From Flavobacterium sp. UBA807 (GTDB taxonomy: Bacteria > Bacteroidota > Bacteroidia > Flavobacteriales > Flavobacteriaceae), in NCBI GenBank assembly GCA_002296885.1, contig DBIH01000176.1:1-21994 (forward strand): a stretch of 21,994 bases of DNA, written 5' to 3'. Under the pieces are notes generated by a model, which saw nothing but the letters and a program-made list of their open reading frames with translations, did no database searches and was not told where the DNA came from. Below, in pieces: positions 6,186 to 8,667 of this stretch. Position numbers and translations under genes: made by a program. How positions within the stretch are numbered: the first letter of the stretch is position 1; every line of letters begins with the position of its first letter.

Positions 6186-7091
6186 CTATTTCTTTTCGGC
6201 TACTCTTAGTTTTGCGCTTCTTGCTCTATTGTTTTCTTTTATTTCAGCATCGCTTGGAACGATTAATTTTTCAATGCTTTTGAATGGAACTGAAAAATTT
6301 CCGTAAAAATCCCGCTCCGGTTCTCCTTCAAACATTCCGTTTTTGATGAAGCGTTTTACCAATCTGTCTTCAAGCGAGTGATATGAAATCACACTTAAAC
6401 GTCCGCCTGGCTTCAATATTTCAAGAGATTGTTCCAAAAACTCTTTTAAAACATCCATTTCCTGGTTTACTTCAATTCGTATCGCCTGATAGATTTGAGC
6501 CAGAATTTTATTTTTATGTTGATCTGGTAAAAACCTTGACAAAACCATTTTCAATTGATCCGTTGTATTGATGTCTTTTTTTTCTCTTGCTTCTACAATT
6601 GTTCTTGCAAGAGCCGGAGCTACCTTTAATTCTCCATAATCCAAAAACACTCTTTTTAAATTGGCTTCATCATATTCGTTTACCACTTTATAAGCATCCA
6701 ACTCATTCTTTTTACTCATCCTCATATCCAATCCTGCATCAAACCGAGTAGAAAAACCTCTTTCTGGCACATCAAACTGATGTGATGAAACGCCCAAATC
6801 TGCCAAAATCCCATCAACACTTTTCACACCATGAAATCTCAAAAAACGCTTGATATATCTAAAGTTTTCAGGTATCAATACAAACCTTTCATCTTGCAAT
6901 GCATTTGCCTGAGCATCTTCATCCTGATCAAAACCAAACAGTTTCCCATTTGGGCCCAGACGTTTCAAAATTTCTTTTGAATGCCCTCCGCCGCCAAAAG
7001 TCACATCCACATAAATGCCATCAGGTTTGATATTCAGTCCGTCTACAGTTTCCTTTAATAAAACTGGGTTATGATATTCCATTGTCGTCAT
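6186..7091 (-). CDS. rsmH: RsmH (MraW), 16S rRNA m4C1402 methyltransferase
   Basis: SAM-dependent methyltransferase that N4-methylates C1402 of 16S rRNA. The N-terminal YHNPVLLKETVDGLNI is the family signature. The SAM-binding loop is YVDVTFGGGGHS (about 28-39), followed by GFDQDEDA, ILADLGVSSHQFD, and the C-terminal SYHSLEDRLVKRF and NNRARSAKLRV blocks. Length (301 aa) is normal. The ATG at 7091 begins inside mraZ (23-nt overlap). A second in-frame ATG at 7082 (MEYHNPV) is nearly as good, so the exact start is uncertain by three codons. Second gene of the operon. Confidence 0.97.
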   Translation of the reverse strand: MTTMEYHNPVLLKETVDGLNIKPDGIYVDVTFGGGGHSKEILKRLGPNGKLFGFDQDEDAQANALQDERFVLIPENFRYIKRFLRFHGVKSVDGILADLGVSSHQFDVPERGFSTRFDAGLDMRMSKKNELDAYKVVNEYDEANLKRVFLDYGELKVAPALARTIVEAREKKDINTTDQLKMVLSRFLPDQHKNKILAQIYQAIRIEVNQEMDVLKEFLEQSLEILKPGGRLSVISYHSLEDRLVKRFIKNGMFEGEPERDFYGNFSVPFKSIEKLIVPSDAEIKENNRARSAKLRVAEKK

Positions 7092-7542
7092 CGTTTACAC
7101 CCCCCATTACATCTTCGGCTAAATCTGCAAAATCAATATCATCGCCAGCTATAGCTTTTTCATATAAATCCTTATCCCAAACCTCTACTATATTAACCGC
7201 TGAAGACAATACAATGTCTTTAGATATTTTACTAAACGCCATTAAATCTTTTGGAATCAACAATCTTCCTTGGTCGTCGACCTCAACCACTTTTACACCA
7301 GCAGTAAAGCGACGAATGAAATCATTGTTCTTTTTAACAAAACGATTGAGTTTGTTTATTTTTTGCATCATCTGGTTCCACTCCGTCATTGGATATAATT
7401 CCAAACAAGGCTGAAAAACAGAACGCTTCAGGACAAAGCCATCCTGAAGGGAAGCTGAAAGCTGCTTTTTTAGTGCCGAAGGAATCATCAATCTTCCTTT
7501 GGCGTCAACTTTACATTCGTATGTCCCGATTATGCTGTTCAA
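7069..7542 (-). CDS. mraZ: MraZ, dcw-cluster transcriptional regulator (TTG start)
   Basis: AbrB/SpoVT-fold DNA-binding protein with two tandem MraZ domains. The first has GTYECKVDAKGRLMIPSALK (about 6-25) and the second has KVVEVDDQGRLLIPKDL (about 85-101). Each carries the DxxGR(L)xIP core used for DNA contact. MraZ proteins bind direct repeats upstream of their own operon and usually repress it. The start is taken as TTG at 7542-7540, because an in-frame TAA lies six codons upstream with no ATG or GTG between. The next ATG would delete the first domain's conserved strand. At 157 residues, with an acidic C-terminal tail, it fits flavobacterial MraZ. It is the first gene of the operon, downstream of a candidate operator at 7583-7632. 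Confidence 0.95.
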   Translation of the reverse strand: MNSIIGTYECKVDAKGRLMIPSALKKQLSASLQDGFVLKRSVFQPCLELYPMTEWNQMMQKINKLNRFVKKNNDFIRRFTAGVKVVEVDDQGRLLIPKDLMAFSKISKDIVLSSAVNIVEVWDKDLYEKAIAGDDIDFADLAEDVMGGVNDDDNGIS

Positions 7543-7564
7543 TTGGTTTTCTTTTCGTTATGAG

Positions 7565-7572
7565 CAAAAATA
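7565..7572 (-). promoter_or_regulatory. Candidate -7 promoter element of the dcw operon
   Basis: Read on the minus strand this is TATTTTTG, an exact match to the Bacteroidota -7 consensus TAnnTTTG. Transcription would start near 7558, about 16 nt before the mraZ TTG codon. TTG trinucleotides lie 15 or 25 nt upstream, neither at the preferred 17-23 nt spacing, so the -33 part is weak. The GTGGTA array covers the -33 region. Confidence 0.55.
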
Positions 7573-7582
7573 TAAAAATATT

Positions 7583-7632
7583 TACCACAATTTACCACAA
7601 AATACCACTTTGTTAATAAGTTTTACCACTTT
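7583..7632 (-). promoter_or_regulatory. Candidate MraZ operator: four direct GTGGTA repeats
   Basis: On the minus strand the hexamer GTGGTA occurs four times in the same orientation, at 7629-7624, 7608-7603, 7598-7593 and 7588-7583. The last three are spaced exactly 10 bp apart and the first lies 21 bp further upstream, so all sit on roughly one DNA face. The two upstream copies read AAAGTGGTA and the two nearest the gene read TTGTGGTA. MraZ is known to bind short direct repeats at 10-bp period upstream of mraZ: TGGG-type in E. coli and AAAGTG(K)-type in Mollicutes. The array covers the -33 region of the candidate promoter, so binding should repress. That role is inferred. Confidence 0.75.
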
Positions 7633-7868
7633 ACATTTATTTCTTATTAAAATTTGACAGCGTTTTTTCGGTCGCTTTTTTAACAAGCCATTAAGATTTC
7701 TTATTTTTAGAAGAAAACTTAAGAGAAAAAAATTGATTGAATTTGAATCCATTTTTGAGAAAATAACAGCAAAATACATTCTCAATTGTTGATAATTAAT
7801 TGATTGACATCAGAGTAACTTACGCAGTAAATAATCCATTCATAAGTGGGTTTTTATCTATAAAATCA
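7633..7868. other. AT-rich remainder of the divergent intergenic region
   Basis: mraZ and the hydrolase gene are divergent, with about 360 bp between them. Outside the MraZ-box array and the two -7 elements this stretch is AT-rich. It has only short imperfect inverted repeats, for example TTCTT/AAGAA around 7700. I see no supported gene or structured RNA; the minus-strand open frame through it has no family resemblance. Confidence 0.5.
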
Positions 7869-7876
7869 TATATTTG
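7869..7876 (+). promoter_or_regulatory. Candidate -7 promoter element of the alpha/beta hydrolase gene
   Basis: TATATTTG, an exact TAnnTTTG match, ending 26 nt before the ATG at 7903. No clear TTG lies at the preferred upstream spacing, so the -33 element is weak. Confidence 0.5.
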
Positions 7877-7902
7877 TTGCAGAGGTAAAAGTTAAAAAAC
7901 GC

Positions 7903-8667
7903 ATGGAAGGAAAATTTAAAAAAGAAGGAAGATATTCTTATTTTGAAGCTGGTGAAGGCACGCCAATCGTAATTCTTCATGGATTAATGGGCGGATTGAG
8001 CAATTTTGCCGAAGTTTCAAATCATTTTTCATCCATAGGCTACAAAGTTGTCATTCCCGAATTGCCTCTATACACACAAAACATACTGAAAACCAACGTA
8101 AAAGCCTTTGCAAAATATGTAAAAGACTTTATCACTTTTAAAGGTTTTGACCGTGTTATCCTTTTGGGAAATTCCCTTGGTGGACACATCGCTTTATATC
8201 ATGCAAAAGTTTATCCTGAGAAAGTAGCAGGGCTCGTCCTTACCGGAAGTTCAGGGCTTTACGAAAGTGCAATGGGCGACAGTTACCCAAAACGTGGCGA
8301 CTATGAGTATATCAAGAAAAAGGCAGAAGCTGTTTTCTATGATCCTGCAATTGCGACCAAGGAAATTGTAGATGAGGTTTTTGCAGTAGTAAATGATAGG
8401 ATAAAAGTTATCAAAACCCTTACGATTGCTAAAAGTGCTATTCGCCACAACATGGCTAAGGATTTGCCAAAAATGCATATGAAAACCTGCTTGATTTGGG
8501 GTAAAAATGACCAGGTAACTCCACCCGATGTTGCTGAAGAATTCCACAAACTGATGCCTAATTCCGAATTATACTGGATTGATAAATGTGGCCATGCCGC
8601 AATGATGGAACATCCTGCTGAATTTAACCGTCTGCTTGAAGAGTGGCTGAAAGAAGTTCATTTATAA
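7903..8667 (+). CDS. Alpha/beta-fold hydrolase
   Basis: Single-domain alpha/beta hydrolase of 254 residues with a full catalytic triad. The nucleophile is Ser91 in the elbow GNSLGG (89-94), the acid is Asp203 in WGKNDQVTP, and the base is His231 in CGHAAMMEHP. The oxyanion-hole segment is ILHGLMGG (24-31). A lid region lies at about 118-185. The N-terminus (MEGKFKKEGRYSYFEAGEG) has no signal peptide, so the protein is probably cytoplasmic. The motif pattern resembles the esterase/MhpC-type family, but nothing seen here fixes the substrate. It is transcribed alone, away from the dcw operon, and a terminator follows its stop before engB. Confidence 0.92.
   Translation: MEGKFKKEGRYSYFEAGEGTPIVILHGLMGGLSNFAEVSNHFSSIGYKVVIPELPLYTQNILKTNVKAFAKYVKDFITFKGFDRVILLGNSLGGHIALYHAKVYPEKVAGLVLTGSSGLYESAMGDSYPKRGDYEYIKKKAEAVFYDPAIATKEIVDEVFAVVNDRIKVIKTLTIAKSAIRHNMAKDLPKMHMKTCLIWGKNDQVTPPDVAEEFHKLMPNSELYWIDKCGHAAMMEHPAEFNRLLEEWLKEVHL

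Follow-up and report, generated by a model that had tools for sequence, protein, structure and literature searches.

A DnaA-box-like element inside a predicted MraZ operator of Flavobacterium hints at replication and division under one switch

Two questions are open: how replication is coordinated with division beyond the classic models, and which input MraZ feedback works against. Here we ask what controls the dcw promoter of a Flavobacterium, using a 21,994-nt stretch of its DNA (the window) in which mraZ and rsmH follow an array of short repeats. The original prediction described four GTGGTA hexamers in the same orientation at spacings of 21, 10, and 10 bp, upstream of a −7 element, and took them to be an operator of MraZ. 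A pattern search confirmed the hexamers and their spacings. The features of the region, in the direction of mraZ transcription, are these.

7624..7629, minus strand: predicted distal MraZ box (AAAGTGGTA), beyond the DnaA-like element; assigned from GTGG found 21 bp out in relatives

7611..7619, minus strand: DnaA-box-like element TTATTAACA, a TTATYAACA-type site 11 bp ahead of core box 1; assigned from conservation, spacing, and recurrence at dnaB, gyrB, hup, and the likely origin

7603..7608, minus strand: predicted MraZ core box 1 (AAAGTGGTA); conserved 10-bp grid

7593..7598, minus strand: predicted MraZ core box 2 (GTGGTA); conserved 10-bp grid

7583..7588, minus strand: predicted MraZ core box 3 (GTGGTA), closest to the promoter; conserved 10-bp grid

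7565..7572, minus strand: candidate −7 element TATTTTTG (consensus TANNTTTG, as we assume it); conserved distance to the boxes

7069..7542, minus strand: mraZ, with a TTG start at 7542; Pfam MraZ

6186..7091, minus strand: rsmH (mraW), the next gene of the dcw cluster; Pfam MraW methylase

The mraZ product matches Pfam MraZ (2.5e-27) in two stretches and, by sequence, solved MraZ chains, among them 1n0e (2.2e-16) and 9qlg (2.5e-15); judged by these matches, the gene encodes a genuine MraZ. The candidate −7 element begins 16 nt past the start of the last GTGGTA box, and the −7 and −33 positions were assigned with a consensus and spacing that we take to be those of Bacteroidota promoters. AAA precedes two of the boxes, those at 7603 and 7624. 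The 21-bp gap between the distal box and the core triple is filled by TTATTAACA at 7619–7611, which the original prediction had missed.

Such repeats might be accidents of AT-rich DNA; the spacers are indeed AT-rich, and nothing else was found in favor of this explanation. The window contains 10 GTGGTA against 3.78 (s.d. 1.95) expected, a number reached in 1 of 100 shuffles, and 4 of the 10 are packed into 47 bp. A GTGGTA pair at 10 bp in the observed orientation never appeared when the intergenic region (7543–7902) was dinucleotide-shuffled 2000 times. This result, the exact period, the conservation, and the loss of the array together with MraZ (both described below) all stand against chance, the probability of which we regard as practically nil.

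Conservation was counted in 175 regions upstream of mraZ, namely 30 from the genus, 46 from the family, 38 from the order, 22 from the class, and 39 from the phylum, where each rank excludes the narrower ones. The genus set includes the window's own region and consists of the best 30 of 60 matches in 61 genomes, with L001 and L002. The family set, from other genera, consists of the six best matches and 40 of the matches listed, chosen by handles that are multiples of three. Drawn among the matches listed, the samples are biased towards better query matches; L156 was left out for its overlap with L114.

Within the 150 bp that precede mraZ, GTGG pairs spaced exactly 10 bp apart were found in 159 of the 175 sampled regions (29/30 for the genus, 45/46 for the family, 36/38 for the order, 15/22 for the class, and 34/39 for the phylum). 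The corresponding counts for GTGGTA pairs were 28/30, 39/46, 15/38, 4/22, and 2/39. Reversed and complementary control patterns occurred 0 or 1 time per rank group, and shuffles were near 0. Across the phylum a GTGG grid of 10 bp is widespread, and spelling as GTGGTA characterizes the family; outside the family, GTGGG and GTGGGG are frequent by eye. The 10-bp phase that the original prediction expected to find before mraZ in relatives is borne out by these counts. An exact GTGGTA pair is present in 102 of 120 family genomes; in the window's own genome both of its two matches belong to this array, and other genomes have some of theirs at different places.

The fourth box, GTGG placed 21 bp out, is found in 30/30 genus loci versus 13/46 loci of other genera, and is spelled in full as GTGGTA in 9 of the 30. 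The conserved unit of Flavobacteriales is three core boxes with TTATYAACA one turn upstream. Its position relative to the promoter is also kept, as the distance from the start of the final GTGG to TANNTTTG is 15 or 16 nt in 72 of the 76 genus and family regions.

The array disappears where MraZ does. Twenty genomes had no MraZ match at E 0.001, of which 13 have rsmH and 7, lacking it, were left out. GTGG-N6-GTGG was absent from the 1.5 kb upstream of rsmH in all 13, where the absence of MraZ was judged with one query protein and a diverged MraZ was possibly missed in some. The 13 genomes that keep rsmH (L327–L339) include one of Flavobacteriaceae (G023), six of family f23, and two tiny ones of f53. 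Incidentally, in three loci of family f46 (L091–L093), MraZ has a different N-terminus (ILETF or ILETY) and TTATYAACA is missing, yet the 10-bp GTGG boxes are retained. With its GTG-core direct repeats at a 10-bp period, an adjacent MraZ gene, and no counterpart where MraZ is lacking, the GTGGTA array is a predicted MraZ operator of an already known type.

The MraZ site of Mollicutes is (AAAGTGK-N3)3 (Fisunov 2016 as quoted in PMC5282649). Both there and here, GTG-core direct repeats with a 10-bp period precede mraZ, and two of the four Flavobacterium boxes read AAAGTGGTA. On the other hand, the Flavobacterium grid is spelled GTGGTA and contains TTATYAACA. The original prediction considered two boxes close to the Mollicute form despite the evolutionary distance. 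AAA does precede both, but the likeness is unsurprising at that distance, as a GTG core is common to the MraZ repeats of distant bacteria according to PMC7761207. The same paper describes four 7-nt repeats with 3-nt spacers, bound by MraZ, in the dcw promoter of Burkholderia cenocepacia. Their 10-bp period agrees with ours. However, the repeats of Burkholderia, and of E. coli as quoted there, are downstream of −10 and overlap the start site, whereas the Flavobacterium array ends before −7. The operator originally proposed is thus upheld by the conserved 10-bp array, its absence without MraZ, and its fit with GTG-core repeats elsewhere, but its composition is revised, since the conserved unit also includes TTATYAACA and the fourth box is mostly of the genus.

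What, then, is TTATYAACA doing in the grid? The exact element precedes mraZ in 30/30 genus, 41/46 family, and 28/38 order regions, and the looser form TTWTYMACA in 30, 41, and 34, making 105 of 114 Flavobacteriales loci. Family loci missing the element include one-base variants, for example TTATGAACA in L007 and L028. Outside the order it is rare, with the exact form in 1/22 class and 0/39 phylum regions.

Its spacing is nearly fixed on both sides. From the element start to the next GTG, the distance is 11 bp in 30/30 genus regions, 11 bp in 28 and 12 bp in 9 of 41 family regions, and 11 bp in 19 and 21 bp in 9 of 34 order regions; the 21-bp distance preserves helical phase with one box fewer. 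From the element start to TANNTTTG, it is 47 bp in 28/30 genus regions and 45–48 bp in all 41 family regions measured, and among the 21 of 38 order regions that were measurable, 46 bp (8) and 56 bp (7) are commonest. Another candidate role for TTATYAACA, that of −33 element in a promoter facing the other way, was set aside, as no conserved divergent −7 was visible in the regions inspected by eye.

The DnaA box is TTATCCACA in E. coli and TTTTCCACA in cyanobacteria (PMC4674748). TTATYAACA is one change away, and TTATTAACA differs from a DnaA nonamer of the TTATNCACA type at position 6. At the homologous position before mraZ, TTATCCACA stands in L080 and L280, which both belong to the same other family, and TTTTCCACA in L100, from another order.

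The same element recurs at other genes. We chose dnaB and gyrB since other searches had shown it next to them, and tested them in a draw of genomes (G000–G040) that shares G021 with the dnaB discovery set. The element lies within 260 bp upstream of dnaB in 28/30 family loci, and the homologous site in L270 reads TTATCCACA. It lies within 250 bp upstream of gyrB in 27/28 loci (leaving out L305 and L325, where no start was found), compared with 0.025 per 250 bp in flanking DNA. In 33 complete genomes, TTATYAACA pairs gave 45 matches, spread over 27 genomes, versus 16 for the reversed control, and among the 30 pair loci retrieved, motifs identified 18 as hup and 4 as dnaB. The extended form AASTTATYAACAAA was not enriched genome-wide, with 25 matches in 12 genomes versus 25 for its reversed control; by motif 7 of them are hup, 3 mraZ, 3 gyrB, and 1 dnaN, three further ones are hup by sequence or neighbors, and eight lie elsewhere. 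Pfam confirmed gyrase B, DnaB helicase, an HU-type DNA-binding protein, and DNA polymerase III beta among the products near the element.

At these promoters too, the distance to TANNTTTG is set. It is 57 or 58 bp from the reversed box of gyrB in 25/27 loci and 57 bp in all 18 measured of 27 hup loci, so that the settings of mraZ (47) and of gyrB and hup (57–58) are one helical turn apart. Upstream of four gyrB genes (L297, L298, L300, and L301), TTTTCCACA, the cyanobacterial form of the DnaA box, is found a few bases from a reversed TTATCAACA. In one genome, three tandem TTATYAACA at 12-bp spacing lie in or beside a histidine phosphatase-like ORF (L243, G014:C1:3873311-3873343).

Does the element also mark a replication origin? 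We mapped skew in a complete Flavobacterium chromosome of 3,452,143 bp (G208) at third codon positions with strand correction, because raw GC skew is confounded by gene strand. Running from 2.63 Mb past the end of the sequence to 0.9 Mb, the GC3 skew is negative or close to zero (0.002 at 175 kb); between 1.05 and 2.47 Mb it is positive. Its fine-mapped minimum is at 1,040,933. Adjoining this minimum is a 0.73-kb stretch between rpiB and a short ORF next to rnr (Pfam LacAB_rpiB and RNB). It contains three exact TTATYAACA against 0.15 expected, while 0 of 1000 shuffles contained three, and near matches are nowhere denser within 180 kb (10 in 500 bp versus a mean of 1.1).

The region before rpiB was then counted in 77 of 80 records obtained with an RpiB query from a genome of the same genus, at 90–95% identity and all but two titled Flavobacterium; L377, L414, and L446 were too short upstream and were left out. 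In the 740 bp before rpiB, these 77 records, which are close relatives and not independent, contain a mean of 2.83 TTATYAACA versus 0.12 after shuffling and 0.03 with the pattern reversed. At least one is present within 1 kb of rpiB in 75 of the 77, and TTATYCACA appears once in the 77. An origin upstream of rpiB is likely, as deduced from the GC3 skew of one chromosome, G208 being the one in which skew was mapped.

Two alternatives were rejected. An origin adjoining dnaA is not supported, as the dnaA promoter has a single box-like site and the G208 skew minimum is ~1.04 Mb from dnaA. Pairs of TTATNCACA, considered as an origin marker, were found in 4/33 complete genomes, at no shared location. 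In Elizabethkingia meningoseptica, the predicted origin is also away from dnaA and has TTATCCACA-like boxes, according to PMC8994065. Because TTATYAACA is common to dnaB, gyrB, hup, and the likely origin, we do not count it as a MraZ box.

The simplest view is that TTATYAACA would be the flavobacterial DnaA box, and by it we infer binding of DnaA. Its clustering at the likely origin, in G208 and the 77 Flavobacterium records, is a trait of DnaA boxes, as is its placement near replication genes. In the linear chromosome of Cyanothece, TTATCAACA is among the DnaA boxes of an origin that DnaA domain IV bound in vitro, more weakly than it bound perfect boxes (PMC4674748).

Unlike the DnaA box, the Flavobacterium element usually has A at position 6, and it keeps a fixed phase in the mraZ, gyrB, and hup promoters. 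The dnaA promoter itself also differs. Of the 30 dnaA loci (L157–L186), three had no usable upstream DNA, and in 22 of the remaining 27, TTGTTCACA, TTATTCACA, or TTATCCACA stands directly before TATTTG (by eye). These sites keep C at position 6, whereas mraZ, dnaB, gyrB, and hup keep A. Two further observations speak against a DnaA box, the lack of enrichment of AASTTATYAACAAA over its reversed control and the rarity of the mraZ element beyond Flavobacteriales. The conserved box before TATTTG is likely a DnaA autoregulatory site overlapping the dnaA promoter. Seven Flavobacterium DnaA proteins close with a domain IV that contains RDHATV, the counterpart of RDHTTV in E. coli DnaA; that this residue change accounts for A at position 6 is a guess.

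As the dnaA promoter site has C at position 6, a separate activator is kept as the chief rival. A different, unnamed protein would bind TTATYAACA next to the MraZ operator and serve division, gyrase, and HU genes without DnaA. The split between C at dnaA and A at mraZ, dnaB, gyrB, and hup agrees with such a protein, and the fixed 47 or 57–58 bp to the −7 element would suit any activator. However, the same nonamer clusters at the likely origin, TTATCCACA takes its place at homologous positions in L080, L280, and L270, and the known targets having the element are replication genes. On balance we consider a separate activator rather unlikely. Our confidence in the DnaA reading is nevertheless tempered, since skew placed the origin in a single genome and the dnaA promoter carries a different site.

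DnaA boxes outside origins can serve as sinks. Accordingly, the element could be passive, titrating DnaA or bending DNA while MraZ plainly autoregulates and dcw transcription is unaffected by TTATYAACA. One box per mraZ promoter, in fixed phase to both the array and the −7 element, looks like an architecture of promoters rather than of titration, and we find a passive role quite improbable.

We therefore return to the reading with DnaA. On balance we favor, with more confidence than doubt, 7565–7629 being a composite dcw operator-promoter, in which MraZ on the GTGGTA repeats would repress and DnaA on TTATTAACA would activate or tune. An oligomeric MraZ ring would bind the three core GTGGTA, and the distal fourth, on one face of DNA. 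The array stops 16 nt short of the −7 element, so bound MraZ would overlie the −33 region and could thereby repress its own operon, as the geometry suggests. One turn upstream, TTATTAACA would be a DnaA box of the flavobacterial type, occupied by DnaA. Bound there, 47 bp ahead of the −7 element, it would be in an activator-like position, which recurs at gyrB and hup one turn further out (57–58 bp), and from there it may activate or at least tune division-gene transcription. MraZ, on sites flanked by DnaA and RNA polymerase, would feed back negatively, and with the distal box the MraZ grid would enclose the DnaA-like site. The switch at the dcw promoter would have two inputs, with DnaA probably activating and MraZ repressing, where we infer both the signs and the cell-cycle role.

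A wider model, to which we give slightly less than even credence, is that DnaA of Flavobacteriales uses the lineage-specific TTATYAACA to activate a small regulon for replication and division (dcw, gyrB, hup, and dnaB) from helically phased promoter positions. At dcw the DnaA box would occupy a slot of the MraZ grid and couple replication to division. An element common to the mraZ operator and the likely origin hints that both processes are under one switch.

Among the open-licence papers listed, judged from titles and the beginnings of abstracts, we found no recognizable treatment of a DnaA box before mraZ or of a flavobacterial MraZ operator. What seems new here, from sequence, is a predicted MraZ operator joined with a DnaA-like box common to gyrB, hup, dnaB, and the likely origin. 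A conserved DnaA-like box inside a MraZ operator would be a direct link between replication and division, open to mutation and measurement. Should TTATYAACA prove to be the DnaA box of flavobacteria, searches based on TTATCCACA will miss flavobacterial origins, and the DnaA regulon (gyrB, hup, dnaB, and dcw) becomes predictable.

On the other side of the 360-bp intergenic region, an alpha/beta hydrolase gene (7903–8667, plus strand) diverges from mraZ, and its promoter may therefore share the mraZ control region.
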